DNA of 64,000 bases from Thermicanus aegyptius DSM 12793 (GTDB taxonomy: Bacteria > Bacillota > Bacilli > Thermicanales > Thermicanaceae). Below the pieces are notes generated by a model. The model saw only the letters and a program-made list of their open reading frames with translations. It did not search any database and was not told the DNA's origin. Positions 28,529-64,000 of this stretch are shown piece by piece. Position numbers and translations under genes: made by a program. The stretch lies in NCBI RefSeq assembly GCF_000510645.1, contig NZ_KI783301.1, forward strand, positions 2,611,151 through 2,675,150. The letters are read 5' to 3'. Position 1 is the stretch's first letter. Each line of letters begins with the position of its first letter.

Positions 28529-28529
28529 C

Positions 28530-43865: not shown

Positions 43866-46800
43866 CTAATGGGTTCCGCCCGTTCCAAAGTCGTCATACG
43901 AAGAAAGATTGGCGTGGTAAAACACGATATCCCCGTCCTTCAGTTGGAACGTCACCCCAAATGGATCGGTGAAACTGCGCTTGAATCCCTCCATTTGCCA
44001 CTGGTTGTTCAGCGGTCCGTAAATGTATTGCAAATGCGGGTGATCCAGGTCCTTATTCCGGATCGTCTCGATGTTGAAATTAACAATGATATACCCGTCC
44101 CGCAGAAAAATGGGGGATTGATCGTCCAGCCGATGCGTGCGCCCATACTCCGCCAGATTCGTGCCTTTCGGCACCACATACACCGCAGCGGGCAGACTGT
44201 ATTCCCCGTACCACCGCTGAACCGACGCATTGGCCCTCGCCGCATCCACTCCGGAAGGAACATTCATGCTGCCGATGAACGTCCGCAATTGCGGCGGCAG
44301 CAGCATGATGTCGTAACCGCCGACGTACGTGGACTTTTTGGTGTTTTTCAGATACTGGTCGATATACGCCTGCTTGTTTCCGCCTGCGCCGGTCAAACTC
44401 CAGAGCGAGCTTGCGGTGTTGATCAGCTCTTGCCGGGGTACATTCCGCAGCCGCTCGTCCAAAGCGATATACCGCCGCTCCGCATCGTCTGCGGATCCGA
44501 TCCGGATAAACCGCTTATTGCCGGAATGGTAGTATAAATCCACTTCCTGTCGGTTCCTGCCCTGTCTGTCCACGAAATAAAATTTCGGCGTGATGCGGAT
44601 GCCGTCCCCCGCTCCGAACATATTGCCTTTGGTTTTCACTTCAAACTTCACATGATATCCTGTCTTCACCGCCACATTTTTCTTACCCGGATCCGGGTGG
44701 CTGCCCTGCCGGACCGGCAACACAAACGGCGGCTGGTTGCCGCGCGGCGATCCGTCGATGTCTTTCGTGCCCACCCAATACGCGTTTCCTGTCGGCGCGG
44801 CCCCGCCTTTTTGCGTCCGGAAGACCGTCTCCCAGTTGTAGTCCGCAATATCCGTGATGCGGAAATCGTACAGCCGGCCGATCACTTCCACCGGGACGAC
44901 CTGGGTCGCCACATGGTTGGACACATTCAGATTGGCGTTCATCTCGGTTCCGAACCCGGTTTGCGGGCTGTTTTCCGCGAAGGTACGGAACAGCACATCG
45001 TAGTTGCCTTCATCGACCCAAACCGGCAGGAAAAACGTTGTGGTTTCCTGCGACACCGGAATCGATATCCATGTTTCTTTCGGATAAAATCTGGATTTGT
45101 CGCCGCTGTACACATCGAACGGAAACCATACCTGTTTTTCTTTGGTATACTTCGCATAGTCGCGATCTCCGTAACCCGGGATGTTCCGATGCTGGCCTTC
45201 GGTCGGAATAGTGACGGTAAACGGCCTGTCCAAAATAAGTGCCGAACGGCCCGCGCTCGGGGTGGTTTTTTGGTTATGGGCTCTGTCGTCCGAGACTGTG
45301 GCGTAGTTCACCACCGGCGTGTGAACGGTGACGGGATTGAGACCGTGAATCGGGAAAGATTGGTTCTCCCCGCCGTTGATTCCTTTGACGAGCGAATAAT
45401 CAATGGTGCCGGAACTCGGCTGGTTGGCCTTGTTTGTCTTGCTCGGTTCGATGAGATAACCTTTTCCGTACAGCACGTCCGGACCAATCACGGGCGGCGA
45501 AGGAATTTGTCCGGGAGCCGGAGCCTGTTCTTCCACCGTCCGATTGTCCATCACCATTGTGCCGTTAAACACAAGCGAATCGTTTTTGACCCGGATTTTC
45601 CCGATCGCCTTTTCCGCTTCGCCCGTCCAGTCTTCATCGGGTACGGACGGCCGGCTCGAACCACCGTTAATGGTTTGTCCGGGAAGGGTGACATCGGAAT
45701 AAACGGGATGCGTAATGTGCGATTCCAATGCATCCGTATGCGCCGCGGAAACGCTCGGCGGCGAATATCCGGTCGGCTGCACCGTGACCGTTCCCGATGG
45801 CAAAGCGTAATTGTTGAAGGTGGCTTTTTGGATCCCATACACCTCAAGATTGTCGATGACCCAATAACGGTATCTCCGTTCGATCGTGTAGTTCTTAGTT
45901 ACCGTTTGTGTATCCGATCGTGGAACGGTGATCGTCGTCGGGTTTCCATCGGAATCGGGCGGTCCGGGCACCCTTTCCGTCCATTTCAACGTGTATGTCT
46001 TCGTAACTCGGATCGGATACTTGCACGTTCCGGACATCTCGGCAAATTCGTTTTTGTACAGATAGGCTTTGGATGATGCATTCACATACAGGCTCTCTGA
46101 AGTCGGAATGCCCTTCAGCACATCGAATCGCTCCGCGCCGCGCGGATCCGCTTGGATGACGCCTGTTGCCGCCGGGTCCATAACCTGTGCGCTCTGCACC
46201 GTTCCTTTAACAGGCCCGGTGCAAACGGCGTGTCCTCCGCCGCCTCCTCCGCAATTTCCGTCTTCGCAGGGAGGCTGCCCACAACCGTCGGCATTCGGAT
46301 CACTTTCGCAAACGTCGTTCTTTAACCTGTACATGGCGACCATATTGGTTCCGCCAACGTAGACGGTAAAGTTCCGGGTGACAACTTTGGTGTCCCCTTT
46401 ATCTTTTTCCTGTACGAAATTCCGTTCTTCCGGCCTGAGAACAGGTGAAAGGTACGAAAGGTATATCTCGTAAGTTTGTTGTCGGTACTCCACTTCTTCC
46501 GGAAACGACTCCAATATTTCGTGGCCGGCGGGGAACTTTCCGACGAGGGTTTCATCCACTTTGGTTCCGTCCGAAAGGTACAGGATTTTGTTCACCGGAT
46601 AACCCTCCGGGTCACCCTCAAACACGATTTGCACATCGAAATATTGCCGCAAATCGGACGGTTTTGCCCAATTTTCCGCCTTCACAATGCCCGACAACGT
46701 ATGAAAAGGGCCTTTTCTTACATGCGGGTTTTCCCTCGGACCATCGACGGACACCATGATCGCGCTTGCGTACAGCGTCATACCTTGTTTAATCGCTTTT

Positions 46801-47180
46801 TCGGCTTTGGCTTCGCCGATCGCCGCAAGCACTTCCTCTTTCGTCCACTGAAATGTCGTGATAACCTGCGTGTCCGTGATCCGCTCGTCGATAATATGGC
46901 CGCCTTCCAGTTTAAAGTGTTCTCCCGCTTTTTGTGACGTCGGATCGCATTCGCCGGTATGATCTTCCGTTGTGCAAGTGTCATGCATGTGAATATACCA
47001 GCCGACGGTTAAATACCTCACGCTGCTAGTGGCCTTCTTAGACTGGGTGACAAAAGTAAACTTCCCTCCATCGAAATACGCTTCGTTCGCACTTGCGAGT
47101 CCCGGGAGGAAAGAAGTCAGCAAAAACAAAAAAAAGAGAATCGAAGCGATTCCCTTTACTCTTACCGCCATATATTTCAT
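43866..47180 (-). CDS. Very large exported protein with Cys-rich Gly linker
   Basis: This protein of about 1,104 residues has a signal peptide (MKYMAVRVKG, then ILFFLFLLTSFLPGLASA). The mature part is beta-rich (many Thr/Val/Gly strands) with a Cys-rich, glycine-rich insert around 285-320 (GCGQPPCEDGNC, GGGGGG). There is no sortase motif or C-terminal anchor. Its N-terminal region resembles DUF5704-type proteins encoded near pilus genes, but I am not sure. Last gene of the Tad-like locus; a surface or tip adhesin role is inferred. Alternative starts are GTG 47192 (overlapping the upstream stop) and ATG 47171. Confidence 0.75.
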   Translation of the reverse strand: MKYMAVRVKGIASILFFLFLLTSFLPGLASANEAYFDGGKFTFVTQSKKATSSVRYLTVGWYIHMHDTCTTEDHTGECDPTSQKAGEHFKLEGGHIIDERITDTQVITTFQWTKEEVLAAIGEAKAEKAIKQGMTLYASAIMVSVDGPRENPHVRKGPFHTLSGIVKAENWAKPSDLRQYFDVQIVFEGDPEGYPVNKILYLSDGTKVDETLVGKFPAGHEILESFPEEVEYRQQTYEIYLSYLSPVLRPEERNFVQEKDKGDTKVVTRNFTVYVGGTNMVAMYRLKNDVCESDPNADGCGQPPCEDGNCGGGGGGHAVCTGPVKGTVQSAQVMDPAATGVIQADPRGAERFDVLKGIPTSESLYVNASSKAYLYKNEFAEMSGTCKYPIRVTKTYTLKWTERVPGPPDSDGNPTTITVPRSDTQTVTKNYTIERRYRYWVIDNLEVYGIQKATFNNYALPSGTVTVQPTGYSPPSVSAAHTDALESHITHPVYSDVTLPGQTINGGSSRPSVPDEDWTGEAEKAIGKIRVKNDSLVFNGTMVMDNRTVEEQAPAPGQIPSPPVIGPDVLYGKGYLIEPSKTNKANQPSSGTIDYSLVKGINGGENQSFPIHGLNPVTVHTPVVNYATVSDDRAHNQKTTPSAGRSALILDRPFTVTIPTEGQHRNIPGYGDRDYAKYTKEKQVWFPFDVYSGDKSRFYPKETWISIPVSQETTTFFLPVWVDEGNYDVLFRTFAENSPQTGFGTEMNANLNVSNHVATQVVPVEVIGRLYDFRITDIADYNWETVFRTQKGGAAPTGNAYWVGTKDIDGSPRGNQPPFVLPVRQGSHPDPGKKNVAVKTGYHVKFEVKTKGNMFGAGDGIRITPKFYFVDRQGRNRQEVDLYYHSGNKRFIRIGSADDAERRYIALDERLRNVPRQELINTASSLWSLTGAGGNKQAYIDQYLKNTKKSTYVGGYDIMLLPPQLRTFIGSMNVPSGVDAARANASVQRWYGEYSLPAAVYVVPKGTNLAEYGRTHRLDDQSPIFLRDGYIIVNFNIETIRNKDLDHPHLQYIYGPLNNQWQMEGFKRSFTDPFGVTFQLKDGDIVFYHANLSSYDDFGTGGTH

Positions 47181-47188
47181 CCCGCACT

Positions 47189-48301
47189 TCACTCCATTTT
47201 TCGGATGATACTGTTGTCAAACAAGCTGGCCATCGTCGACAAGGCCAGATGATCGCCGTAATTACCGGAATGATTGGTGCCCAGCCAAATATCGGCGTAA
47301 CCCTCGTACCAATCTCCTTTTTCAAATTTGTCGGTATCCGGATTAAAGAATGTGTCGTGAAAAATATTCTTGTACTCCGCATAGTTGTCGATCTTGAAAC
47401 GAACCCTCGCTCTTACGTACCAACCTCCCAGTCCCGAATTGTACAACATGCTCGGCTCCGGCTCGACAAAACCCTCGAGTTTTATTTTGTTTTCCTTCAC
47501 CCATTCGGCGTACTCTTTGTTTTGCTGTACCCGGACTTTACCGAACGCTTGGTTCTCGTACTGAAACAATTCGTCGGCCCACACAGCGGAATCAATGGTT
47601 TCATAGTCCACATTTAATTTCAAGGCAAAACCGTTTTTCACCCGCTGCATGATCTTTTTCAAATCTTCGGTCGAAAAGATCTGTTCCTTGTAAATGTCGA
47701 CGGAGACTTGGGTATGCCCTTTTCTCGAATGGGGATATTGAAATTCATACATCTCATTCGGTATGTCTTCCAAAATATAAGGATAATCGTTGGCGTTTTT
47801 CGGCAAATTCGCTGTGCGTACAAGCCGCCCCCATTCGTCGTAATTTGCCGTATCGTTCTCCTTCGTCGATATGTGCACGGTTGCCGTGAGGTTATCCCAA
47901 GTGACTTTCGCCCCCAGCACTTCGCTGACAAACCGCAGCGGGACGAACGTTCTCCCGCCCTTCATGATCGCTTTCGTATCAAAGGGGACTTCCGCACCGT
48001 TCACGATGGCCTTGTTTTCACCGACGGTAAGGCGGATCCGCTTGTCTCCCCGCTCAATCGGAACCGTCATCGTATCCGCTTCCCAGCCCACTTTCGCTCC
48101 CATGTTTTCGGCGACAAAGCGGACCGGTACGAGCGTGCGTCCGTTTTCGTCAACAAACGCTTGGGCGTCGGGAAACCAGATTTTCCGGCCATCCATCACG
48201 ACGCTGACAAATGCCGGCGCCGTCACCGCGGCATAGGAGAGATTTGCGAAAAGACTGACACAGACCAGGATTGCCAAGCTTAGGCTCAACCACTTCCTCA
48301 A
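47189..48301 (-). CDS. Exported protein with copper-amine-oxidase-like stalk domain
   Basis: This 370-residue protein has a signal peptide (RKWLSLSLAILVCVSLFANLSYA), then a Cu_amine_oxidN1 stalk domain (about 30-145) with two repeats: GRTLVPVRFVAENMGAKVGW and GRTFVPLRFVSEVLGAKVTW. The remaining ~220 residues are unassigned. TTG start after AAGGAG. These stalk domains are usually cell-surface modules in Bacilli. It overlaps or abuts the giant protein gene, suggesting a joint role. Confidence 0.85.
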   Translation of the reverse strand: MRKWLSLSLAILVCVSLFANLSYAAVTAPAFVSVVMDGRKIWFPDAQAFVDENGRTLVPVRFVAENMGAKVGWEADTMTVPIERGDKRIRLTVGENKAIVNGAEVPFDTKAIMKGGRTFVPLRFVSEVLGAKVTWDNLTATVHISTKENDTANYDEWGRLVRTANLPKNANDYPYILEDIPNEMYEFQYPHSRKGHTQVSVDIYKEQIFSTEDLKKIMQRVKNGFALKLNVDYETIDSAVWADELFQYENQAFGKVRVQQNKEYAEWVKENKIKLEGFVEPEPSMLYNSGLGGWYVRARVRFKIDNYAEYKNIFHDTFFNPDTDKFEKGDWYEGYADIWLGTNHSGNYGDHLALSTMASLFDNSIIRKME

Positions 48302-48532
48302 TCAACTCAACTCCTTCCCGTTTGGAATTCTGAGAAAAAAAGGAAGTCCATTCGTGTCTCCATCTTAGTCTTGTTACGTGAAACTGTCCACTCACTCTTT
48401 CAACCGTTGCTGGAACGAACGGAAACGGTAGTTGTTTTGGGGCAGGAAACACGCTGATAAACGAAAAAGCCACAATCCTCAACTTTTTGTAGGGATTGCA
48501 GCTTGTTCATTTTCGATCCTGACATCTTGTGC

Positions 48533-48895
48533 TCATGCAATGGCCTCAAACGATGGGAGCAAAACACCGTCCGGACCAATCATCCCCAGCGCATAAGCTT
48601 TTTCGATCATGCCCAGTTTTTGATTTTCAAATGGAACATTGCCGTTCCATTGCGCGTTCAACCGGGAACTCCGAACCTCATGTTCCGGCAAGGCGCGGGC
48701 ATACTGGGGATTCACCACACGATTCTTCTGAATGGCTTTCATAAATTCGGAAAAAGTGATCCCGTCGCGGTTACCGTACTTGCTGATTCCCATATCTGCG
48801 CCATAGGTTTGAAAACGATTGACCAGCGTAACTTTTGTGTACGCGGCAAATTCCGGAGTAAATCTCCCGTTCACATCCACTGCAGAAAAAGACAC
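48533..48895 (-). CDS. Hypothetical protein
   Basis: GTG 48895 follows a perfect GGAGGTG at 6 bp and gives a 120-residue protein (SFSAVDVNGRFTPEFAAYTK... ending GVLLPSFEAIA). No signal peptide or family. Weak internal similarity to SLH-like helices is not convincing. It lies between pilus genes in the same direction. The 231-bp gap after it (48302-48532) shows no gene. Confidence 0.6.
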   Translation of the reverse strand: MSFSAVDVNGRFTPEFAAYTKVTLVNRFQTYGADMGISKYGNRDGITFSEFMKAIQKNRVVNPQYARALPEHEVRSSRLNAQWNGNVPFENQKLGMIEKAYALGMIGPDGVLLPSFEAIA

Positions 48896-48975
48896 GACCA
48901 ACACCTCCGAATGTTCCTTCATTTACTATATCGGCACATGGACTGGAAAACATAACGGTCGGCTTTTCCAAATTC

Positions 48976-49959
48976 TTAACGAGCGATATTGTGGCAACTT
49001 AAAGGAACGTATCCCTTTTTCGCAGCTTCTTTTTCACTGGTGAACGTTTCCTCTACGGGGTATGGAAACGAGCAGGTGCTGTGGTAATACACCTTCATTC
49101 CGTTTTTCACCGCTCCGACGATGAACGGCTGCTTTAGCACTCGGCTGCCGCCCAGCGCGTAGTTGTTGTAGAATCGTTGTCCGACCGGGATTCCCTGCAG
49201 AAAAGCCATCACGCCGACGTCGTCGATCGTGTTGCTCCAATCCTCTCCAGATATCACAGGAAGCGAAAAGGTGTAGGAAATTCCCACACGGGCGGCGTAT
49301 TCGTTGTGCCGGTTGATCCGGTACGCCAGTTCGTTCTGGATTGCGTTTACGATGGTGCTGCGCCGCACCTGTTCAAATTTGTCCGGATCGCGCAGCAGAG
49401 GGACGATGGTATCCTCCGCGATTTCACTTCGAAAGCCCTCAACCCATCTCTGACTGCCCGCCTCATAGGCGATCACATAATCATCCAGCGTAAACGACAG
49501 GCTGTTCCCCCGCGCGTCGGCATATGCGTACGGTTTTTTCGGTCCCCATACGGAGCGCATCTCCGTTTCGCCTTCCGCGTTCGTGAACTCTTCTTCGGCA
49601 TAGACGTAAAAACCGTCATACCCGATGATAACCACGGCCGGAATATAACGGTTCAGCACACCTTGGGAAACCGGATCGTCGGCAATACCGAAGTTCATGT
49701 AGAGCGTCCGGTAGAACGTGTCAATCGCTTCTTCCTTGTTCACCCTGACCCGTTTCAGCGAATCGTATTGCGCTTCCCGCCCCGGATCGACGTTCATGAT
49801 CAGCGCCCTGGCCGCATCGTCCACTGCTGCGTCAAGTGCCGCGTCGTACCGCAATTCGGTGATCATCGTTTTTCGCTGCATCTGAGTTTCCGTTTGATTC
49901 ACCATATAGAAGGGAAACAGGATGAGCACCCCGACGATGGCCCAGTTAATCATCTTCAT
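48976..49959 (-). CDS. TadE/TadG-like membrane-anchored pseudopilin
   Basis: This protein of about 327 residues has one N-terminal hydrophobic helix (MKMINWAIVGVLILFPFYMV) and a large extracytoplasmic domain (YDAALDAAVDDAARALI, YDGFYVYAEEEF). This layout fits TadG/TadE-type minor components. ATG 49959 after GGGGGGATGG is preferred over 49998; it overlaps the upstream gene by 14 bp. Confidence 0.6.
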   Translation of the reverse strand: MKMINWAIVGVLILFPFYMVNQTETQMQRKTMITELRYDAALDAAVDDAARALIMNVDPGREAQYDSLKRVRVNKEEAIDTFYRTLYMNFGIADDPVSQGVLNRYIPAVVIIGYDGFYVYAEEEFTNAEGETEMRSVWGPKKPYAYADARGNSLSFTLDDYVIAYEAGSQRWVEGFRSEIAEDTIVPLLRDPDKFEQVRRSTIVNAIQNELAYRINRHNEYAARVGISYTFSLPVISGEDWSNTIDDVGVMAFLQGIPVGQRFYNNYALGGSRVLKQPFIVGAVKNGMKVYYHSTCSFPYPVEETFTSEKEAAKKGYVPLSCHNIAR

Positions 49960-50494
49960 TCCGGACCATCCCCCCGTACGTAATGAAGATTTTGACATGG
50001 GTACTACCGGCGTTGTTCAAGAAATCGTGCAGAATCGTTCCGTTCGTCCGGTTCGTGTTTTTTACCAAAACATAAAAGGTATCGCCCACCGACAGCCTGT
50101 AGCGACGCGACCGGTCGTCTTTCCCCGCGGCATTGTCGGGGAACAAAACCGGCAAAATTTGCGCGTTAAAGAACATCTCATAATGAACCGCGTATTCACC
50201 ACGGAACGTCTCCGGCCGCAACGGATCGTCATAAACCGGATCGTACCGTTTGTGACCGTGCTCCATTTGAATGTCATAGGTGTTGCCTGTGGCGCTTAGC
50301 GTCTGCACAAAGTCGTTGTACATCTCCGGAGAAATGTACCCCTTGTCCCGGACCGCGTCGACAAACGCGGTCACCGCGCGCAGCGCGACCAGTTCCGATA
50401 CGTCGTCCTGATGGTCAAACGCGGCGGAGATCGGGAAAATGTACAACAGAAGGACCGCGATCAGGATGGCAAACACTTTTGAGATGCTGTTCAC
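49946..50494 (-). CDS. Exported/membrane-anchored protein of the pilus locus
   Basis: This protein of about 182 residues has an N-terminal hydrophobic helix (FAILIAVLLLYIFPISAAF) and a soluble extracytoplasmic domain. GTG 50494 behind GGGGGAGG is the better start; GTG 50500 is possible. Role as minor pilin or assembly factor is inferred from position. Confidence 0.6.
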   Translation of the reverse strand: MNSISKVFAILIAVLLLYIFPISAAFDHQDDVSELVALRAVTAFVDAVRDKGYISPEMYNDFVQTLSATGNTYDIQMEHGHKRYDPVYDDPLRPETFRGEYAVHYEMFFNAQILPVLFPDNAAGKDDRSRRYRLSVGDTFYVLVKNTNRTNGTILHDFLNNAGSTHVKIFITYGGMVRNEDD

Positions 50495-50509
50495 ACCCAC
50501 CTCCCCCTC

Positions 50510-50899
50510 TCAAATCGAGGTAAACACCACGCGCGTCAATTCTCCGTTCTGCCCCCGTTGATAGAATGGTTTGTACCTGCCGTTCACCTGGATGCCGGAC
50601 AACCGGACATCCTCCTTTTCCAGATCCGGCGGGTACACCGTGCCGTTCACAACCAGTTCCACCCCGATGTCCCGGATTTGCGCGACGGACTGCAAAACTA
50701 CGGCGCCCGACACGCTGCCGTCACCCGCCAGCGGAGACAACGTGGAATGAATATTGGGGTCCGCCATTTGGTTGGACTCATACGTCCACTTCAGTGCGGC
50801 GGATCCGCTTTGAAACAGCATCAGGCCCACCGTGACGGCCGCCACGAACATCAGACAAGCCGCGCTCATTTCGATCATCGTTCGGACGGAATGTCCCAT
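50510..50899 (-). CDS. Small TadE-like pseudopilin
   Basis: This 129-residue protein has an N-terminal helix (MIEMSAACLMFVAAVTVGLMLF) containing the Glu-containing entry into the hydrophobic stretch seen in prepilins, followed by a small beta domain. AAGGAGGAACAG precedes ATG 50899. It sits immediately after the terminator that follows the pilin-like gene. Confidence 0.55.
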   Translation of the reverse strand: MGHSVRTMIEMSAACLMFVAAVTVGLMLFQSGSAALKWTYESNQMADPNIHSTLSPLAGDGSVSGAVVLQSVAQIRDIGVELVVNGTVYPPDLEKEDVRLSGIQVNGRYKPFYQRGQNGELTRVVFTSI

Positions 50900-50915
50900 T
50901 GTCTGTTCCTCCTTG

Positions 50916-50947
50916 CAAAACCGGGCTCCCCCATAAGGAGGAGCCCG
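50916..50947 (-). terminator. Strong hairpin after the pilin-like gene
   Basis: Minus strand CGGGCTCCTCC-TTAT-GGGGGAGCCCG (one G-U) followed by GTTTTGC, in the 65-bp gap between the pilin-like gene and the next gene. Confidence 0.75.
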
Positions 50948-50964
50948 CCATCCAACATGCATCG

Positions 50965-51444
50965 TTACTGTTGCACAAACACAATGCCGCGAATCACGTT
51001 GCTCCGGTCTCTCACCAGCTGCGCCCGGAACTTGCCGCTCGGATTCACATAGTTGATGTCCGCTTCGTCCATCGCGTCTGCAATCGTTCCAGGTGCGGGG
51101 CCGATGACGGAACCATACGTGACACTGTCTACGGGCACACCGGTATTAATCACTTTGCCGTACCATTGCCCGGCCGGATTTTTTCCCGTCACGATCTGAA
51201 TCCCGAATTGATCCTGATCGGAAAATTTGCGGAGGGCGTTCAACACCTGACTGCCGGAGACAAGCGTATTATCATACACCGTAAACGCCGTTTGGGAAAG
51301 TTCGGTTTGAATGTTGGAGAAATTGTTTTGCGCCGCTTTCGTCGCTTCCTGAGCGGAAATAAACATGACGACCGCAATCGTGATCAGGGCGATGGCGAGA
51401 AAAATGCCGGCTGCCATCACCAGCGCTTTTTGGGCGTTGGACAT
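50965..51444 (-). CDS. Probable major pilin of the Tad-like system
   Basis: This 159-residue protein begins MSNAQKALVMAAGIFLAIAL, a short polar leader and a long hydrophobic helix like a class III/type IV pilin N-terminus, followed by a soluble domain rich in Asn/Gln/Thr. A canonical G/A-x4-(E) cleavage motif is not obvious, so processing by the prepilin peptidase encoded at 60.3 kb is inferred. ATG 51444 follows AAAGGAGTGA. It is bracketed by two terminator hairpins, as expected for an abundantly made pilin. Confidence 0.6.
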   Translation of the reverse strand: MSNAQKALVMAAGIFLAIALITIAVVMFISAQEATKAAQNNFSNIQTELSQTAFTVYDNTLVSGSQVLNALRKFSDQDQFGIQIVTGKNPAGQWYGKVINTGVPVDSVTYGSVIGPAPGTIADAMDEADINYVNPSGKFRAQLVRDRSNVIRGIVFVQQ

Positions 51445-51489
51445 CGTTTCGTTCACTCCTTTTGGAATGGATCAGAATGTTGAAGAAAA

Positions 51490-51516
51490 AGAAAAAAGCC
51501 TTCGGAATGAAGGCTT
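51490..51516 (-). terminator. Terminator between platform and pilin genes
   Basis: Minus strand AGCCTTC-ATTCC-GAAGGCT forms a perfect 7-bp stem followed by TTTTTC, 14 bp after the stop of the fused TadB-TadC-like gene. Confidence 0.75.
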
Positions 51517-51530
51517 CGGGCAATGACCCG

Positions 51531-53606
51531 CTATTGAATTCGGTGAATTTGTTCATAGTACACCGACATTTGACTCAGGCTGACGTACACGAGCGGGAAA
51601 ACGAGGTACAAAAAAATGAGGGACACCATCGGCGCAAAACCGATCATTTTCCCCCAACCCGCTTTCGTTTCGATCAACCGTTCATAATCCTGCTTGCGCT
51701 GCTCCCGCATAAACTCCCGCTCCGATTCCAGATCGTCGAACGCCCTGCGGATCGGAACGCTTTCCGCGGCCAACTGCAGCCTGTCCACGATACGGGCAAA
51801 GGGCGCAAACGGCGCCTCTTCCTTCAGCCGTTCCAAAGCTTGCTCCGCGCCATGTTCGTAATGCAACAGGCACTGCTGGAGCGGTTCCTTAAAAATAAAA
51901 GCGAACCGTTCCATCCATTCCAGCAGTTGTTCCACGGAGATGCGGTCCATTTCCGACAGCATGGCGATGACGGCGTGAAACTGGTCCACTTCGTGTTTCA
52001 TCTCCATTTGTCTGAGCCGTCTCCGGAACAGAAGCATCCACACGGGGACAAAATAGCCGCCCCAGCCGATCAGCAGGCTGAGCATCACCTCCCACCATTT
52101 CAGATATTCCTGATTCAGCGCCTCCAGCTTTCGCAGGATGCGCTGCGCGGCAGCATGAAGCTGCTGCTCGTTCTGCGCAAACTCCGGTTCTTGCCGCAAT
52201 CGGGAAAGGACCGCTTCATAAATCCGGCTTTTCGCTTCCTTTACGTCCGCCAAAATTTTGCGGTCCAGTGCCGCCGCATCCCTGGCCGCTTTCGCCTCTT
52301 CCGGAGAAAGGCGTCCGAACATCGTGTCCGGCTTGTCCCATGCATACAGAAGCTGATGCGTCGCCACCGCATGAAGCGTCACAAACAGCGCAATGGACAA
52401 CAAAAATCCGAGGACGCTCACCGCCACCCGCTGAACATAAAACCACTCCAAACGAAGCGGCGAGCTCGTTTCCTTAAGCAGCATGGTGCAGCGGGCGTAC
52501 TCTTTACTTCCGGGGCCGGGCATGATCCGATCGACCAGCCATTGAACCCAGGGAACCTGATACGCCCGTTGTTCCCATGGTTTTCGCCTCCGCGCCGCCG
52601 GCTGTTCCCGGTCCAGTTCCCGCATGTGGCGCAGCAGGACGTACGATCCGAGAACAATCAGCAGAACGACGATTCTGGACATCCAGCCGAGTTTGCCGGC
52701 GTAGAATGCGTCCATCGCCGGAAAGTAACTTCTTGCCCAGTTTTCGATCGGCTTCGTGAAGAGAAGCGGAATCAGCGCGATGGCGGTCAGACCTTGCAAC
52801 AGGAAACTCAGTTTCTCCCGCCGCAAAATGGCCAGGTTCAGTTCGCCGGTAAGCTGGCCGAGGGCTTTCAAGTACACCGACCCGTGCTGCGTCATTTTAT
52901 CCCCGTATTCCCTGACCAGATGGGAAATGCCCGCCAGTCCCTTCAAAAAGCGGTTCGGCGCGGCCTCGTAATATTGCTCCAGCCTTTCCTCCGGGTTGCT
53001 GGACGTCAGCACCTCGTAAATTTCCCGCGCATGCAGCGCCATTTCGTGCGGCGCGGTTTCCGCCGCGTCGTAAATCGCTTCCTCGACCATCCCGTGACGG
53101 TGGTAGTGATGCCTCACATCGGTGAGAAAATGGCGAAGCTGATGAAGCTGGCGGTTTTCCAGGCGGTGAACGAACGCATCGGCCATCACCCCGTGTCCGA
53201 CCCATATCCCGGTCGCAAGCAGGAGCAGCATCAGCACATCGTCGGTGATCCACAGAAGCGGCACAACGGCCGCGAGCAACACCCCCCACACCGCGAGAGC
53301 CAGCTTGACCGTTTCCAGCCGCAGTTTCCATTCGTCAACCACATGCAGCACCGCAAGCCGCCTGCGGATCCCCATCAAGTACATCCGCAGCAACGGAACC
53401 TTGGCGCACCAGACGTAAATTTTCTGAAAAAAGCTGTACGCGGCCTGCCGGCGCGACGCTTTGTCCGGGAGCCGCAACTCTTCGTATTCCCGGACCGATC
53501 CGGCGCCGGTGTTTTTTCGGGACACCATTTGAAACAAAAGCGCGGCGAGCATAAAGAACGCGACGGAAAATCCGAACGCGAACGTCAGCCAAGTTTTAAG
53601 CTCCAT
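51531..53606 (-). CDS. TadB-TadC-like inner-membrane platform (fused)
   Basis: This 691-residue protein has hydrophobic helices near residues 5-28, 105-150, 275-295, 315-335, 410-435 and at the C-terminus. Two type II secretion F-like modules follow one another (a helical-bundle region around 150-250 and a second around 530-650), whereas TadB and TadC are usually separate ~300-residue proteins. It would anchor the pilus motor in the membrane. It overlaps the TadA gene by 11 bp. Confidence 0.75.
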   Translation of the reverse strand: MELKTWLTFAFGFSVAFFMLAALLFQMVSRKNTGAGSVREYEELRLPDKASRRQAAYSFFQKIYVWCAKVPLLRMYLMGIRRRLAVLHVVDEWKLRLETVKLALAVWGVLLAAVVPLLWITDDVLMLLLLATGIWVGHGVMADAFVHRLENRQLHQLRHFLTDVRHHYHRHGMVEEAIYDAAETAPHEMALHAREIYEVLTSSNPEERLEQYYEAAPNRFLKGLAGISHLVREYGDKMTQHGSVYLKALGQLTGELNLAILRREKLSFLLQGLTAIALIPLLFTKPIENWARSYFPAMDAFYAGKLGWMSRIVVLLIVLGSYVLLRHMRELDREQPAARRRKPWEQRAYQVPWVQWLVDRIMPGPGSKEYARCTMLLKETSSPLRLEWFYVQRVAVSVLGFLLSIALFVTLHAVATHQLLYAWDKPDTMFGRLSPEEAKAARDAAALDRKILADVKEAKSRIYEAVLSRLRQEPEFAQNEQQLHAAAQRILRKLEALNQEYLKWWEVMLSLLIGWGGYFVPVWMLLFRRRLRQMEMKHEVDQFHAVIAMLSEMDRISVEQLLEWMERFAFIFKEPLQQCLLHYEHGAEQALERLKEEAPFAPFARIVDRLQLAAESVPIRRAFDDLESEREFMREQRKQDYERLIETKAGWGKMIGFAPMVSLIFLYLVFPLVYVSLSQMSVYYEQIHRIQ

Positions 53607-55476: not shown

Positions 55477-55479
55477 GCG

Positions 55480-56322: not shown

Positions 56323-57034
56323 GCCGATCCCTCCTCATCCGTTTCCACGCTCTTTTCACCGTCCGGCCGTCCAGCCCGAACAGCACTTGGGCCAGCCATT
56401 GCACGTTTTTGGCATACGTTCCGGACAGTCCTTTTACGCTCACGCGTTCCTGGTGTTGATTGCCGATCATCACCGAAAGATCCTGATCCGAAAGCGGAAT
56501 CCGGAATACCGGTTCCTCCCACCGGATGTGGAAACCTGAATAAAAGGAATCAAAATACGCTTCGGGGATCGTGCTTTCCACAAACGGGCACCACATTTTG
56601 AAACACACAAGCGGCTGTTCGCTTGCCTTGTCCAAACCGAGCCGCCGCATCAGGTCCGCGTTTTTTTGCAAGGTCAACTTCTCAAAGCCGCCGCACCAGA
56701 CATAGTGATCGAAAGCTGGCAAATGCCGCCCGACAAATTCGGAATGATCCGTATCCAAAAGCAACACGTCGTAATGCGGCCATCCGCCTTCCGTTTGGTT
56801 CACGTGCCGATCCAACTGCCCATATGTCAAAAATCCGACAGCCACGTCAAAGCCTTCAAACTCCGTCACAAAAGCTCCCGGACGGTCGTCAGTCCGCGGC
56901 AAATATCCCAGCACCGTTTGCGCCATCGACGAATCGACCAGCAGTACGCGTTGCCCCGCCGCCGCCAGCAATTTGCCCAGCGCTAGAAGCAAGTGGCTTT
57001 TGTCCGTCGCACCGAGAAAAGCGATCTTTTTCAT
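56312..57034 (-). CDS. Second ParA/MinD-fold protein, P-loop degenerate
   Basis: This 240-residue protein starts KKIAFLGATDKSHLLLALGKLL, a ParA-type first strand with the P-loop glycines mostly lost, then VLLVDSS and DVLLLDTDHSEF. Probably a non-ATPase partner of the neighbouring TadZ-like and CpaE-like proteins. Confidence 0.65.
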   Translation of the reverse strand: MKKIAFLGATDKSHLLLALGKLLAAAGQRVLLVDSSMAQTVLGYLPRTDDRPGAFVTEFEGFDVAVGFLTYGQLDRHVNQTEGGWPHYDVLLLDTDHSEFVGRHLPAFDHYVWCGGFEKLTLQKNADLMRRLGLDKASEQPLVCFKMWCPFVESTIPEAYFDSFYSGFHIRWEEPVFRIPLSDQDLSVMIGNQHQERVSVKGLSGTYAKNVQWLAQVLFGLDGRTVKRAWKRMRRDRRGA

Positions 57035-57046
57035 AATGCCCTCCCT

Positions 57047-58150
57047 TTACGAAGCCGAAGGCGGCTGGTTAAACACATCTTCCAGTTTATTTGCCGGTGG
57101 CTTTTCTTGACCGTTTTCCGGCGGCATTTCCTTCGTTTCCCCCGGAGATGCTTCGGGCACCGGCGACGGTTGGCCGGCGGCGGGATCGTTCCCGGGCCGG
57201 GCTTGTCCGTTTTCCTGACCGGCCGGCGGCTCAGCCGGCGGTTGGATGGTTTGGCGGCTCGCGTTGTTTTGCTGCGTGGCGATCCGCTCGTTTTGAAGTT
57301 GCTGTTGGACCGTGACGCTGCCATGGACCACCTTCATTTTATCCACGTCGCTCATGGCTTTCAGATCGTTGTCCAAGCGGGTCCGAAGCTGTCTGGCCAG
57401 TTCCGTCTTCGCGGTTTCCAAAATGTTCGGATCCGTTTCCATCAGGTTCAGCACTTTCGGATTGGGCGGATAGTTGGGAATGGCCGCCTCCTGCATGCCC
57501 GGATCCACGTACGCGAGGGCGTACAATTTCGCTCCTTGCAGGTAGGCGTCGATGATGGCGCTGGAAGCCATCAGGATTTCCCGTTCATCCATCGTGTACC
57601 AAACGATATTGCCCGACAGTTCCTGCACTTTCTTTTTGGAAAGGACAATATAGTCCTGGCCGGTTGGGAAGTTGATCCGCACGTCCACGTACTGGCCTTT
57701 TTGCAGGTTGGTCGGAAGCTGAATGACGTTAAATTCCTGCAGCCGCAAATCCCTCGGAACGGGGCCTTCCTCAAACAGCATGGAGGACACAAGCGGTGTG
57801 TTGGCGCGCAATTCGATTTTTGTGACTTTCCCGACCGCCTGCTTCGGATCGGTGATCAGGTTTTCCGAAACCAGATCCGCGGCAAGGTCAAGCACCCGTA
57901 AATCTTCGGTCTTTAGCACCGTTCCGGCCGGGAGATCGCGAACAACTACAACCATCCTCGTTTTTTGGGCTGCTTCCCGGTTTTGGAGTTCCTGGATCCT
58001 TGCTTCGTATTCAGCTTTCATCTGGGCTGTGGTTTCTTTGGTTTGCAAAAAGCTGTACAGCACCATGCCGGTGGCAAAAAACAAAATGATCAAAATACAT
58101 ACGAACGAAATCATGATGATTCGTTTTCGTTGTTGTCCCCTAAATGGCAT
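57047..58150 (-). CDS. cpaB: CpaB/RcpC-like SAF-domain protein
   Basis: This 367-residue protein has an N-terminal membrane helix (IIMISFVCILIILFFATGM), a coiled segment, a SAF domain (about 60-120; VVVRDLPAGTVLKTEDL) and a C-terminal Pro/Gly/Gln/Glu-rich tail. CpaB links the Tad machine across the wall. In Bacillota it must work without an outer membrane; the low-complexity tail may span the peptidoglycan. Confidence 0.85.
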   Translation of the reverse strand: MPFRGQQRKRIIMISFVCILIILFFATGMVLYSFLQTKETTAQMKAEYEARIQELQNREAAQKTRMVVVVRDLPAGTVLKTEDLRVLDLAADLVSENLITDPKQAVGKVTKIELRANTPLVSSMLFEEGPVPRDLRLQEFNVIQLPTNLQKGQYVDVRINFPTGQDYIVLSKKKVQELSGNIVWYTMDEREILMASSAIIDAYLQGAKLYALAYVDPGMQEAAIPNYPPNPKVLNLMETDPNILETAKTELARQLRTRLDNDLKAMSDVDKMKVVHGSVTVQQQLQNERIATQQNNASRQTIQPPAEPPAGQENGQARPGNDPAAGQPSPVPEASPGETKEMPPENGQEKPPANKLEDVFNQPPSAS

Positions 58151-58177
58151 GTCTCTTCATTGCTCCTTTCCATATGG

Positions 58178-59485
58178 TCAGAAACGTTTGAAGCGAAAGA
58201 ACCGGTTCCATCTGGGTTCCTCATGGATTCCCTTTCCGAACCAGTAACGGTCGACAAACGCATGGATTCGAGCCGCATAAGCTCCTTTCGTCGCACATTC
58301 GCCGCGCCGGATCCCTTCACCTACGGCTTCGTCTTCGGGAAGATCCAATGCATATGGCCACGGAAGAAGTTCGCGCAAACGGTCTTTCGGAATCTTCTCC
58401 CGCATCCGGTTCCAGACCACCGCGATATCCGGCGAAGGATACAAGGCGGACAAGAACGGTTTCATCCGGCCAAGATTGCGGATGCTGGCCGGCTCGTCTG
58501 TGGTCATTAACCATAACTGTTCGGCCTGCTCCAAGGCCAGCTTCGTGATGGCGTCCAAATGGACTGGAGTATCGATGAGTACCGTATCCATTTCCGACTT
58601 CAGAAAACGGACGACGGCGATCAGCTGTTCCCGCTCCAGAATCAACGTCCCTGCCTTGGCGGGGGCAGCGACAATAAAAAAACCCATCTTCGTTTTCAGA
58701 AGACAGGCTTGGCTGGCTTTTCCATCCTCGATCCGGCGTACCAGGTCGGCAATCGTCTTGTTTGGCTGGAGTTGCAAGGTGGAAGCCACGGATCCGTGCA
58801 TCAAATCCAAATCCAGGATGCACACCCGGCCTCCCTCCCGAGCCAGTTTCGCCGCCAAATGAAGCAGAAAGGTGGTCGTTCCGACCCCTCCTTTGGCCGC
58901 ATACGCGGCAAGAACGGAAGGCGCATACCTGGCAAGTGCTGCTGAAACCGGCGCGGCCGGCGTTTCGCTTTCCTTTTGGGTCCATAATCCGGAAGGCGGC
59001 ATGGATACCGAAGAAACCGGCTCATGCCCCAAAATAAAGCGGGGGAATTTCTCCTGTTCGTGCTGTTCGTTCTGCGGGATCACTTCCTCTGAAGGAGCCT
59101 TTTGTGCCCGGTGGGAAAGCGGCACCGGGTCATCCGGCTCCATATCTTCATCTTCTTCAAAGAGTAAGGAAGACTCCCGCGATGTTGACGGAGACGAAAC
59201 GTACGCTTCAAAATCCGTTTCATCCGTGGGGGTGATCACGTTGGAAATCCCGATGGCCGCCCATTTTTCTTTTGGGATATTCTCGTCAGATAACAGAAGA
59301 ACAGTCATCTTTTTGCGGACGAACACGGGCACGAATTTTTCCCAACTTGCGTCCGCGGCATCGAGAACGACCAGTTTCCCTCTGACTTTATGGGCCTCGT
59401 GCAACACCCGCACCACCCATCCTTTTCCCCGAAGCCGATTGATCCACTCCTCACGATGGCACGGCCGAAAAAGAACCAGCCGCAT
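58178..59485 (-). CDS. cpaE: CpaE-like receiver/MinD ATPase
   Basis: This 435-residue protein has an N-terminal receiver-like domain (about 1-95; VVRVLHEAHKVRG, LLLSDENIPKEKW), a disordered acidic linker, then a MinD ATPase with deviant Walker A AKGGVGTTTFLL (about 198-209), ILDLDLMHGSV and LIDTPVHLDA. It is the only one of the three ParA-like proteins with an intact P-loop. ATG 59485 follows GAAAGGAGGGCGG. Confidence 0.8.
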   Translation of the reverse strand: MRLVLFRPCHREEWINRLRGKGWVVRVLHEAHKVRGKLVVLDAADASWEKFVPVFVRKKMTVLLLSDENIPKEKWAAIGISNVITPTDETDFEAYVSSPSTSRESSLLFEEDEDMEPDDPVPLSHRAQKAPSEEVIPQNEQHEQEKFPRFILGHEPVSSVSMPPSGLWTQKESETPAAPVSAALARYAPSVLAAYAAKGGVGTTTFLLHLAAKLAREGGRVCILDLDLMHGSVASTLQLQPNKTIADLVRRIEDGKASQACLLKTKMGFFIVAAPAKAGTLILEREQLIAVVRFLKSEMDTVLIDTPVHLDAITKLALEQAEQLWLMTTDEPASIRNLGRMKPFLSALYPSPDIAVVWNRMREKIPKDRLRELLPWPYALDLPEDEAVGEGIRRGECATKGAYAARIHAFVDRYWFGKGIHEEPRWNRFFRFKRF

Positions 59486-59542
59486 GTGTTCCGCCCTCCT
59501 TTCGCCATGCATGCCAACCAGAATCGGATATACCGTTTCCTA

Positions 59543-60270: not shown

Positions 60271-60310
60271 CGGGACATCCCCCCGTTTTCTCAATGGTTC
60301 CATAAAAAAT

Positions 60311-60748
60311 TCAGTCCGCCGAAATCGTGATGGATCGACCGCACATGAGCAATGCCGCGGCAGCAAGCGGGATGGCGAAAGAAATCTTCTTATTTTCGAC
60401 CCGCTGATGTTGAGTACAAGCAAGTGCCAACCAAAGCAATGAGAACATGGAAGCCCATAAACACAAACTGGCAAATCGCGAAGGACCCAAGAGAGTTCCA
60501 TATGCCATCATGAGCTTTACATCCCCGCCGCCCAACCATCCTTTCAGATAGGGAACAATCAAAATGCTTGCGGATAAAAAACCTGTCAAACTTTCCATCG
60601 TATTTCCATCTAAAACGTTCAGGAGGAATCCGCAAAAGATCCCTCCCAAGCTCACTCCATTCGGAATGATATGATCCTTTCCGTCGTACCAAGCGGCAAG
60701 CAATGCCATGGTGGCCACCAAACCAACGGACAACCCGGTGATCATCAT
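60311..60748 (-). CDS. Prepilin peptidase (A24, TadV/CpaA-like)
   Basis: This 145-residue membrane protein has the catalytic aspartates of family A24: Asp in AWYDGKDHIIPN (about 20-31) and the GGGDVKLM motif (GxGD; about 72-79), with four or more hydrophobic helices. It would cleave the pilin leader. It starts within the stop codon of the gene upstream (ATGATGA). Confidence 0.88.
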   Translation of the reverse strand: MMITGLSVGLVATMALLAAWYDGKDHIIPNGVSLGGIFCGFLLNVLDGNTMESLTGFLSASILIVPYLKGWLGGGDVKLMMAYGTLLGPSRFASLCLWASMFSLLWLALACTQHQRVENKKISFAIPLAAAALLMCGRSITISAD

Positions 60749-60939: not shown

Positions 60940-61035
60940 GTCTCACCTCCGAAGTACTTCGATCGGGGCTCTTCTGTCCGATGAATCCGTCATCGACTTT
61001 CCACAGCTTCCGATCCTGTCGTCTGCTCGTCCATG

Positions 61036-61347: not shown

Positions 61348-61375
61348 GCGTGGCCCTCCATCCGTACAACTGGAA

Positions 61376-62158
61376 TCAATCCGCCTTCTCTGGCGGGTAA
61401 TTGGTAATGAACAACTCCTTAACCGGCTGCCGGCCGCTTTGTTGTCTGCAGAGGGTATACCGGGTTTCCACCTCTTCGATGTAAAACGGTTTGTACCATT
61501 CACGAACCACAGGATGGTCGTTAATGCTGAGGAGAAATTTCCCTTTAATCCCGGTCAGCAAATCCCGCAATTGAAGCTGATGCTCTTTTGTGAATTTGTA
61601 AATGTATCCCGAAAGCTCGAAATAGGGAGGATCGCAATAAAAAAAAGTGTCCGGCGAATCGTACCGCGGGATCACTTCTTCAAAGGACCGGTTTTCAATG
61701 TACACTCCGATCAGTCGTTCATGGGTCTCCTTGAATTTCTTCTTCACATCGCTCATATTATAGGCGGGCCTTGTCCGGGAGTATCCCCAGTCGTCACAAT
61801 CGTTGTATTTGCCCCCGAAATGGGAATAGACCCGGTAGTAGAAGTCATAGGCGCGCGTCACGGGGTCCCGTTCCTCGTTCCTTCGCGCCATGATCCGTTG
61901 GAATTCGTCGCGGGCGTACAAAGCCCATTCAAACCTTTGCGCCAACTCCTCCCAGTTTTCCTGGATCACGCGAAAAAAATTCACCAGCTCCGAGTTAATG
62001 TCGGCAAACACCTCGACTTTTGACCGTTCCTTTCCGAACAACACCCAACCGGCGCCTCCAAAAACTTCCACATAGCACGTATGAGGGGGAAAACGACGGA
62101 TGATTTCTTTCCGCAAGCGGGATTTTCCCCCTTGCCAACGAATCGGGCTTTTGAGCAT
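61376..62158 (-). CDS. D12-class N6-adenine DNA methyltransferase
   Basis: This 260-residue Dam-like methylase has the SAM-binding VEVFGGAGWVLFGK (about 31-44), VFADINSELVNFF, and catalytic FYCDPPYF (about 181-188). D12 enzymes methylate adenine in GATC-like sites. No cognate restriction enzyme is seen, so it is probably an orphan methylase protecting the element, as in phages and integrative elements. AAAGGAGGAATC precedes the ATG. Confidence 0.9.
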   Translation of the reverse strand: MLKSPIRWQGGKSRLRKEIIRRFPPHTCYVEVFGGAGWVLFGKERSKVEVFADINSELVNFFRVIQENWEELAQRFEWALYARDEFQRIMARRNEERDPVTRAYDFYYRVYSHFGGKYNDCDDWGYSRTRPAYNMSDVKKKFKETHERLIGVYIENRSFEEVIPRYDSPDTFFYCDPPYFELSGYIYKFTKEHQLQLRDLLTGIKGKFLLSINDHPVVREWYKPFYIEEVETRYTLCRQQSGRQPVKELFITNYPPEKAD

Positions 62159-62175
62159 ACCGATTCCTCCTTTGC

Positions 62176-62427: not shown

Positions 62428-62464
62428 GGCACAACCGACGCTTTTTTTAGAAAAAAGAAACGGG

Positions 62465-62740
62465 TTAGTATTCCCTCGGAAGCAAAGCCGTGGCTACGAG
62501 ATAATCACCGTAATTATCGAAAATCACCCATATTTTTTCAGGTAAATGGAGATTCACGGTGTCCAGGATTTTGTCGTTCCCATCGGTAATCTCTACCCGC
62601 CCATTTTTCGGTTGAAAGGAAATAAACGGCGATTTGTCTTTATGGGCGATCGCTTTGTCAAACAACGTCCGTAGCACATGAGGGGGCAAATCCAGTCTTT
62701 CAACGCCCCTTGTCATCACCGTTTGAATCGGCTTTCCCAT
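62465..62740 (-). CDS. Small hypothetical protein (DUF960-like?)
   Basis: This 91-residue protein starts MGKPIQTVMTRGVERLDLP at ATG 62740 after GAGGAGGATTC. The TRGV...LP segment recalls DUF960, but the rest does not align well, so this is tentative. Confidence 0.5.
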   Translation of the reverse strand: MGKPIQTVMTRGVERLDLPPHVLRTLFDKAIAHKDKSPFISFQPKNGRVEITDGNDKILDTVNLHLPEKIWVIFDNYGDYLVATALLPREY

Positions 62741-62783
62741 ACGAATCCTCCTCATTTCCAAAATTCAAAATGGTCAAATGGCA

Positions 62784-62812
62784 TAAAAAAACGACTTCGT
62801 TTCCGAAGCCGT
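62784..62812 (-). terminator. Terminator with GAAA tetraloop
   Basis: Minus strand ACGGCTTCG-GAAA-CGAAGTCGT (one G-U) followed by seven T, after the gene ending at 62839. It separates the hydrolase-proximal genes from the methylase/pilus transcript. Confidence 0.85.
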
Positions 62813-62838
62813 ACTTGCCCTTATGCTGTTACCAGCGT

Positions 62839-63060
62839 CTAGAACAAAAAATCATAAGAACTCGTTTTCCTGAACTTGCGATAAAATTCTTCCGGGTCGT
62901 GGCAATTCAGTTTGACGGTTAAGTACCCTTTTTCGGCCAACGGGTCGACCATGCGATCCAGCACGATACCGCCGCACTTCACCACATCCGAAGCATACGC
63001 ATCCAGATCTCCGTTGTGCTCACATTCCCGAAAACGCAATATGACTCTAATCTTTCTCAC
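62839..63060 (-). CDS. Small hypothetical protein, paralogue of the one at 38740-38964
   Basis: This 73-residue protein (MRKIRVILRFRECEHNGDLD...) shares EC-x-H-x-GDLD-x-Y-x-x-x-V-x-x-x-GG-x-I and the C-terminal hydrophobic end with the 74-residue protein beside recombinase 3. The pair bracket the element's accessory region. Confidence 0.65.
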   Translation of the reverse strand: MRKIRVILRFRECEHNGDLDAYASDVVKCGGIVLDRMVDPLAEKGYLTVKLNCHDPEEFYRKFRKTSSYDFLF

Positions 63061-63335
63061 CCCTGTTTTTTACGGGCTATGTTGACCGGAGGCATTTTTT
63101 GAGATCGCAGAAGAAACAAGCCGTTGTACAGAATTTGTATCAGATCCCGATGGACCACCCAAGGTTCGACAACCATTCTGCCCGTTTTCACATTGACAAC
63201 CCGGAATGCGACCGATTGCGGAGCGGTCGGAAGAAATTTCATTTGTACAGCATACATGGGAGGGGTCCCTTTTCTTCCAACCTCCTCCCACCCGTCTTTA
63301 AGCAAAGAATAACTCTGCGTCTTCTTCCAAATCAT
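63057..63335 (-). CDS. Small hypothetical protein
   Basis: This 92-residue protein (MIWKKTQSYSLLKDGWEEVG...) with GGAAAGGAAAGAG upstream. It overlaps the next gene by 4 bp. A basic C-terminus (IARKKQG) is the only notable feature. Confidence 0.5.
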   Translation of the reverse strand: MIWKKTQSYSLLKDGWEEVGRKGTPPMYAVQMKFLPTAPQSVAFRVVNVKTGRMVVEPWVVHRDLIQILYNGLFLLRSQKMPPVNIARKKQG

Positions 63336-63389
63336 GATATCTCTTTCCTTTCCACTGCAGCGGTTCCCGAGTATATATCTGTTTTCTAA

Positions 63390-64000
63390 CTACGGAATCC
63401 ATTTTTCCATCGGGTCGACCGATTGACCGTGCTCTGTCATCCCCAGATGGAGATGCGGTCCAGTGGAACGGCCCGTTGATCCGACCGCTCCGATCATTTG
63501 GCCGGTATAAACGAACTGACCGGCTTCCACACCGATCACCGACAGATGCCCGTAAAAACTATCGACTCCATTTTGATGGTCGATGCGAATGTAATGGCCA
63601 TACCCTCCGTAATTCAACGAAGCGGCCGTGACGAACCCGTCCCGAATGGCCAATACGGGTGTTCCTACCGGAGCGGGCAAATCGATCCCGTCATGGAACG
63701 CGGTTTCCTCTGTAAATGGATCGCTGCGTAGGCCGTATGAGCTTGAGACCGTGGTATGGCCGATCAACGGCCACAGCCAACCGTCCACCCGAATCAAGGC
63801 GGATCGGTACTTCGCTTCCACATCGACAATTTTCGCGATTTCGTCTTCTCCCAGCCGAAGCGAACGAAGCGCATCATCAAAGGATCCCTGCCAGTGGGAT
63901 ACGGTTGCCGCAAGCGAAAAGATGGCATCTTCGGGATTGTCGGGATCCATCGCTCCATCTCCATCGCCGTCGCGGTGAAATTGCTCCCAAAGAAAGTCGG
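63390..64000 (-). CDS. Transglycosylase/M23 peptidase cell-wall hydrolase (5' partial)
   Basis: The frame is open to the window edge. The visible part starts with DFLWEQFHRDGDGDG and DPDNPEDAIFS, the C-terminal signature of a lytic transglycosylase (SLT) domain, followed by an M23 peptidase with the zinc motifs HDGIDLPAP and GPHLHLGM. SLT-M23 or SLT-NlpC hydrolases open the wall for conjugation or pilus machines in Gram-positives. Here it heads the leftward locus, upstream of the pilus genes. Confidence 0.88.
   Translation of the reverse strand, partial: DFLWEQFHRDGDGDGAMDPDNPEDAIFSLAATVSHWQGSFDDALRSLRLGEDEIAKIVDVEAKYRSALIRVDGWLWPLIGHTTVSSSYGLRSDPFTEETAFHDGIDLPAPVGTPVLAIRDGFVTAASLNYGGYGHYIRIDHQNGVDSFYGHLSVIGVEAGQFVYTGQMIGAVGSTGRSTGPHLHLGMTEHGQSVDPMEKWIP

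Follow-up and report, generated by a model that had tools for sequence, protein, structure and literature searches.

Conjugation in Gram-positive bacteria is generally taught as pilus-free, with contact between cells left to surface adhesins, and to our knowledge neither the Tcp system of pCW3 nor the type IV secretion systems (T4SSs) of the Tn916/ICEBs1 type include pilus genes. The thin pilus of R64, an analogue for what follows, is a type IV pilus of a conjugative element. The type IV pilus of PAPI-1 brings mating cells together (PMC5297154). On Cutibacterium acnes plasmids (pIMPLE-HL096PA1/p09-9) a tad locus adjoins TcpC and VirB4, with a link to conjugation that was called unclear (PMC5696575, 2017), and the plasmid pBsph was noted to bear a pilus assembly ATPase besides VirD4, VirB4 and VirB6 (PMC4363355, 2015). 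We describe a variant of these known pairings in a stretch of 64,000 nucleotides from Thermicanus aegyptius DSM 12793 (contig NZ_KI783301.1, positions 2,611,151 to 2,675,150; the window). The host genome is a single contig of 3.66 Mb; the flanks beyond the window were read as well, and positions past 64000 are counted on from the start of the window. A cassette of Tad-like pilus genes lies here in one array with a Tcp-type T4SS, on an integrated element of 91,372 bp. Judging from its genes, this is probably an integrative conjugative element with a mating pilus of its own, a filament that would serve donor–recipient contact.

Tad-like and Tcp-type genes in one array

A single leftward array occupies 43866-73616, with the Tcp-type T4SS as its upstream part and the Tad-like genes (43866-59512) as its downstream part. 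From the coupling ATPase to DUF5704 it comprises 31 genes in one direction, many of them overlapping, with a largest gap of at most 290 nt. Relatives with the same arrangement are referred to as class I. The main genes are listed from the upstream end.

71316-73616, minus strand: TraG/TrwB-like coupling ATPase (PF10412, 1.4e-9, above cut-off)
70246-71145, minus strand: Replic_Relax protein (PF13814)
69421-70239, minus strand: TcpC (profile match)
69139-69411, minus strand: small membrane protein between TcpE and TcpC
68383-69132, minus strand: TcpE (profile match)
65903-68386, minus strand: VirB4/TcpF-like ATPase (profile match)
64350-65906, minus strand: VirB6-like protein (VirB6-like model)
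63390-64316, minus strand: M23 wall hydrolase, crossing the window edge at 64000 (PF01551, 3.5e-31)
61376-62158, minus strand: D12 adenine methylase, a conserved class I array member (PF02086, 7.3e-31)
60311-60748, minus strand: A24 prepilin peptidase (PF01478, 2.9e-13)
58178-59512, minus strand: CpaE/MinD-like ATPase (PF13614, 5e-12; TIGR03815, 3e-10, below cut-off)
57047-58150, minus strand: CpaB-like protein with SAF domain (PF08666, 7.9e-11; TIGR03177, 2.7e-12, below cut-off)
56312-57034, minus strand: TadZ1, degenerate CpaE/MinD-like (conserved position; weak CbiA similarity)
55480-56322, minus strand: TadZ2, degenerate MinD-like (conserved position; weak MinD similarity, 0.013)
53596-55476, minus strand: TadA/CpaF-like secretion ATPase, Walker A GAQGSGKT (TIGR03819, 1.6e-8, below cut-off)
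51531-53606, minus strand: fused TadB/TadC-like platform (TadBC), 691 residues, after TadA in every locus
50965-51456, minus strand: pil1, candidate major pilin (alignment; long N-terminal helix predicted)
50510-50899, minus strand: pil2, pseudopilin-like (conserved position)
49946-50500, minus strand: pil3, pseudopilin-like (conserved position)
48976-49998, minus strand: pil4, large and pseudopilin-like (conserved position, N-terminal hydrophobic stretch)
47189-48301, minus strand: stalk protein with Cu-amine-oxidase N domain (PF07833, 2.6e-37)
43866-47192, minus strand: exported DUF5704 protein, 1108 residues (PF18964, 1.2e-78)

The array contains a Tcp-type set of VirB4/TcpF, TcpC, TcpE, VirB6-like protein and wall hydrolase (mating-channel matches to PF12846, PF12642, PF12648 and the VirB6-like model). 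The same types of part make up the pCW3 Tcp and Tn916/ICEBs1-type T4SSs, the relaxases of which differ from the Replic_Relax protein found here. A promoter scan came out near chance level, and the terminator-like sites, somewhat more frequent than in shuffles (42 versus 26.5), are mostly weak. Directly upstream of the coupling ATPase gene lies a BlaR1/BlaI-type pair (M56 peptidase and repressor, 74072-76124), possibly a regulator or inserted cargo.

The original prediction, made from the window alone, had described the run from wall hydrolase to exported proteins. Its M23, D12, A24, CpaE/MinD-like, CpaB, TadA, stalk and DUF5704 members were confirmed with Pfam and NCBIfam, the hydrolase gene being present but running past the window. 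The methylase, taken as an orphan, is instead an array member that recurs at the same place in 8 loci. Neither a relaxase nor a coupling protein had been visible: the coupling ATPase lies beyond the edge, with the transfer genes beginning at 64350, and the remark on the relaxase holds for classical types in the scanned open reading frames. The suggestion of a pilus that is part of a transferable element, and possibly of use in transfer, gained from the VirB4, TcpC, TcpE, VirB6-like and coupling ATPase genes contiguous with the pilus genes.

The cassette resembles a Tad/Flp pilus in its TadA/CpaF ATPase (E 1e-10 against solved CpaF structures, phmmer), its CpaE- and CpaB-like proteins, its putative platform and its several small pilin-like genes. 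It differs in having a single protein of 691 residues as that platform, in pilins without the Flp motif, in two TadZ-like proteins and in its stalk and DUF5704 partners. The TadZ-like pair gave no confident family match and no recognised P-loop, the platform matched neither T2SSF nor any other family in Pfam or NCBIfam, the pilin-like genes matched nothing in the databases either, and searches of the platform and pilin against solved structures returned nothing meaningful; yet these genes, also named in the original prediction, keep their order over dozens of loci. The prepilin motif G|XXXXEY is absent from the N-termini of pil1 to pil4, and we therefore speak of a Tad-like system rather than a proven Flp pilus. 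The A24 peptidase was detected only here and in a close Cohnella laeviribosi copy; the same model found none in other class I arrays. The stalk gene is swapped in many relatives for that of an SLH-domain protein, and either product is a candidate wall anchor. The DUF5704 protein is a candidate surface, tip or adhesion protein. Its AlphaFold model (mean predicted local distance difference test score, pLDDT, 56) was too weak to use, and Foldseek matches were not meaningful. A second TadA homologue elsewhere in the host genome (contig 2214754-2215431), only 29% identical, is likely a canonical chromosomal CpaF.

Recurrence of the cassette with unrelated secretion systems

The class I array is collinear from coupling ATPase to DUF5704 in four other loci: C. 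laeviribosi contig 42 (which stops inside the stalk gene), P. athensensis (stalk gene not recovered), P. timonensis and C. zeiphila. VirB4 of the class I type, 73-77% identical, occurs in eight genomes. In a second class (class II) the cassette CpaB-TadZ1-TadZ2-TadA-TadBC-pil1-pil4-stalk-DUF5704 stands without Tcp genes, as in many Cohnella and Paenibacillus loci. The one class II locus examined, that of Paenibacillus sp. 32352, has a Tn1549-like machine downstream of the cassette: a VirB4 of the CD1110 family (1053 bits versus a cut-off of 325), PrgI, a VirD4-type coupling protein (PF02534), a VirB6-like protein, a MobA/VirD2 relaxase, MobC, ParB and a serine recombinase. It was at first supposed that many relatives have no T4SS, until this second VirB4 type turned up downstream.

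VirB4 accompanies TadBC on one contig in 32 of 45 close loci, in each case on the same strand: in six it is of class I and sits 12.6-15.4 kb upstream, in 26 of class II and 14-42 kb downstream. In a TadA plus TadBC tree rooted on a Butyrivibrio plasmid, class II is nested within class I with 100% support, the plasmid forms are basal and the two classes have the chromosomal forms as neighbouring branches; support is weak (61-80%) at some deeper nodes. The nesting indicates an exchange of T4SSs around a retained pilus cassette.

Close TadA (at least 80% coverage) is also found on ∼ 24 plasmids of 100-540 kb from Paenibacillus, Cohnella, Thermobacillus, Alkalihalophilus, Sporosarcina, Cytobacillus, Lysinibacillus and Butyrivibrio, with the gene order of the cassette kept in the regions examined. 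MOB-suite typed all 25 plasmid records with close TadA from the first search as non-mobilizable. Tcp-type or PrgI/VirB4/VirB6-type T4SS genes nevertheless lie on several cassette plasmids, and Replic_Relax genes, usually two, on 13 of the 17 plasmids searched (0/14 control genomes), which points to a blind spot in typing by relaxase. Plasmid pSSII-1 bears the cassette together with coupling, VirB4 and VirB6 genes of a T4SS; the plasmid of its source strain was called pBsph-like (PMC4363355). The pBsph-like Lysinibacillus plasmids thereby resemble the present element, from which they differ as replicating plasmids with a distinct T4SS. pBsph and p1593 have been treated as conjugative, and mobilisation by p1593 was shown (PMC13239906). 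The cassette as such is undescribed in PMC4363355 and PMC13239906. In a literature search that covered a minority of subscription journals, neither DUF5704 nor this cassette was the subject of any paper, and on Tad pili combined with Gram-positive conjugation the Cutibacterium plasmid paper alone came up.

Same-strand pairing, where measured, with several unrelated T4SSs is best explained by a shared mating task; this recurrence also strengthens the inference drawn in the original prediction. The rival account is that the cassette is cargo, an adhesion or colonisation pilus of use to the host cell, carried by conjugative elements but taking no part in transfer. Tad pili usually serve adhesion, and a Paenibacillus chromosomal clade of the cassette stands among housekeeping genes with no T4SS genes beside it. 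Cassettes of this kind were found in P. cellulositrophicus, P. rhizosphaerae, P. nuruki and another genome pair; their TadBC is 43-48% identical (40-48% over the distant chromosomal versions as a whole), no stalk or DUF5704 genes adjoin, and in three further genomes DUF5704 is encoded elsewhere in the genome. The original prediction had named a pilus locus at a fixed chromosomal site as evidence that would count against it; such loci exist, but only as these distant relatives. Against it, the cassette shares its strand with two unrelated types of T4SS and lies at a stereotyped spacing from each, and in class I it is spliced into a T4SS array between short gaps. The C. acnes tad plasmid also speaks against this account. 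It is Gram-positive, has TcpC, VirB4 and a VirB6-like gene beside its tad locus, and encodes a large LysM wall-binding protein that may be likened to the wall-associated partners of our element. It is not integrated, however, and its tad locus is of the canonical actinobacterial kind, in which tadB and tadC are separate genes and the pilins are of the Flp and TadE types; it has an FtsK-type translocase and divergent transcription, and neither DUF5704 nor a fused platform. It therefore represents another Tad lineage in the same partnership, an independent pairing. On balance we consider cargo a rather unlikely explanation.

TadA and DUF5704 occur in exactly the same 5 of 399 genomes of a phylum sample, which links DUF5704 to this pilus type. 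We give about even weight to the wider proposal that CpaB to DUF5704 form an interchangeable mating-pilus module of the Bacillota, a conjugative pilus for Gram-positive donors that works with at least three unrelated T4SS types.

The element, its ends and its cargo

The left end of the element lies in the window and its right end outside it. The features at and near the left end are as follows.

27269-27325, minus strand: attachment site attL at the element's left end, formed by the 3' half of the host tRNA-Leu(CAA)
27551-28528, plus strand: IntA, Xer-like tyrosine recombinase (PF00589, 5.6e-36; XerD-like match below cut-off)
28497-29519, plus strand: IntB, Xer-like tyrosine recombinase, conserved (PF00589, 2.8e-38)
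37380-38495, minus strand: IntC, third tyrosine recombinase, at the downstream end of the array (PF00589, 1.6e-33)

The attachment core TTTTGAGT stands at 27318-27325 within the tRNA-Leu fragment, beside the two Xer-like recombinases. At the right attachment site (attR) the core TTTTGAGT recurs at 118690 and leads into the 5' half of the tRNA. Neither attL nor attR alone is a tRNA, but the joined flanks give an 88-nt tRNA-Leu(CAA) in which the acceptor and anticodon stems pair perfectly, and the element is therefore integrated, from core to core, in the anticodon loop of the host gene. The tRNA-Leu fragment and tandem recombinases noted in the original prediction are thus real, and the right attachment site that it proposed to look for exists. 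ARAGORN and Rfam found no tRNA in the window because the fragment is incomplete; it was recognised by aligning the left end against C. laeviribosi. Two other positions for attR were discarded: an intact tRNA-Leu(CAA) at 118319, the first choice, in favour of the half gene at 118690 that gave the perfect joined tRNA, and a half tRNA at ∼ 113.2 kb, for which the joined product had anticodon-stem mispairs.

The intact gene (118319-118401, 289 bp inside the right end) belongs to the element. As it is the sole full-length CAA copy found in the genome, the element appears to supply a replacement for the tRNA that its insertion breaks. A chimeric tRNA-Leu(CAG)-like gene with mismatched acceptor halves (113165-113252; tRNA-Sec according to ARAGORN) is perhaps a scar, perhaps another replacement tRNA; the P. 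athensensis element sits in a tRNA-Leu of this same type.

IntA keeps its place in C. laeviribosi and P. athensensis, and IntC is kept in three other elements. A conserved gene for a 230-residue protein and a two-component pair upstream of the array (85.7-89.0 kb) are common to other class I elements, from which it follows that the element reaches at least 89 kb. C. laeviribosi DSM 21336 has an identical left-end layout with its own, different tRNA-Leu half. This close copy (contig 15) shares window positions 27316-29562 and most of 37381-62450 at ∼ 93-97% nucleotide identity, and 62456-63352 at 81%; the T4SS part is absent from that contig. The flanks and the intervening cargo differ. Shared sequence between host-different flanks is what one expects of a mobile element that resides in two hosts, and the partial copy supports past mobility. 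Transfer between orders is likely on this comparison, in a genome collection with only six other genomes from the order of T. aegyptius. A thiC nucleotide comparison of both hosts, meant as a control, gave no match and was uninformative.

These ends also bear on whether the array might be a contact-dependent machine for effector delivery instead of DNA transfer. Its large exported proteins would suit that purpose. The coupling ATPase, the Replic_Relax protein and recombinases with precise attachment sites indicate DNA transfer, however, and no effector–immunity pair was seen in the array. The original prediction had mooted contact-dependent delivery; nothing we found supports the delivery of toxins on contact, and we hold effector delivery to be very improbable indeed.

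Besides the array the element carries a complete Gabija anti-phage system just inside its left end (29612-33547; GajA 6.8e-248, GajB 3.2e-229), which is unmatched in the C. laeviribosi copy. A PIN-domain protein gene with a small upstream partner (42193-42746), in a stretch common to that copy, is likely a toxin–antitoxin pair. Metal-related genes occupy 91945-104239: a heavy-metal P-type ATPase (91945-94401, Pfam) and, by eye, second heavy-metal-ATPase-like, zinc-transporter-like and repressor-like genes. A protein of 1572 residues with DUF4011, helicase, MTES_1575 and DUF3320 domains (113454-118172), adjoining the right end, is possibly a defence protein.

A possible role in mating

We infer a filament from the pilus genes and suggest the following sequence. 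TadA and the fused platform would drive the assembly, and perhaps the retraction, of a pil1 filament with the pseudopilins pil2 to pil4. The stalk or SLH protein and DUF5704 would anchor this filament in the wall or make up the part of it that establishes contact. Once the filament had drawn the donor up to the recipient, the DNA would be passed by the coupling ATPase, VirB4 and the TcpC/TcpE/VirB6-like channel, with the M23 hydrolase. The encoded parts fit together coherently, although how the filament would be assembled and retracted, and what would form its tip, is read from the genes. The R64/IncI1 thin pilus and the PAPI-1 type IVb pilus, type IV pili of conjugative elements that contact recipients, would be counterparts in role. 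Those are Gram-negative, PilV-bearing type IVb pili that recognise lipopolysaccharide and lie outside the Tad lineage; the host of the present element, unlike theirs, has no outer membrane.

The filament might alternatively take up or anchor DNA, or act as a type II-like pseudopilus that remodels the wall in transfer rather than binding a distant recipient. A Micrococcus luteus tad locus is needed for transformation, as cited in a passage of PMC5696575, and both the pseudopilin-like character of pilins without a Flp motif and the wall association of the exported partners would fit such functions. However, pil1 is strongly conserved (63-88% identity between distant loci in the alignment) and first of the pilins, as expected for a major pilin, and the large, exported DUF5704 protein occurs in the same genomes as the pilus. 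These functions seem to us improbable.

Several observations weigh against a mating pilus on a transferable element. No classical MOB relaxase was found among the scanned open reading frames (part of all), only Replic_Relax (PF13814). Insertion sequence copies are numerous within the element, which may therefore be inactive; its continued transfer is presumed from its genes. In addition to the missing Flp motif, pil1 gave a poor AlphaFold model (helix 2-55, mean pLDDT 48, low confidence). The T4SS does not adjoin the pilus genes in class II and on the plasmids, and 13 of the 45 TadBC loci have no same-contig VirB4 (mostly on broken contigs, four forming a decayed-looking subgroup). It is evident from the distant chromosomal relatives that a pilus of this type can serve ends other than transfer. 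pBsph and pBsph-2 gave no conjugation within a detection limit of 1e-7 (PMC4363355, 2015), so transfer is not efficient under all conditions. Our literature search found no transfer or pilus experiment on any such cassette.

A mating role is nevertheless the reading we infer from the combined array and its recurrence. If the cassette is a mating pilus, one ten-gene module, common to Tcp-type, Tn1549-type and plasmid T4SSs, would account for how mating cells make contact in many Bacilli of the soil and in some Clostridia. DUF5704 would gain a testable role. Large plasmids now typed as non-mobilizable would be marked as potentially conjugative, and mobility typing would be corrected.

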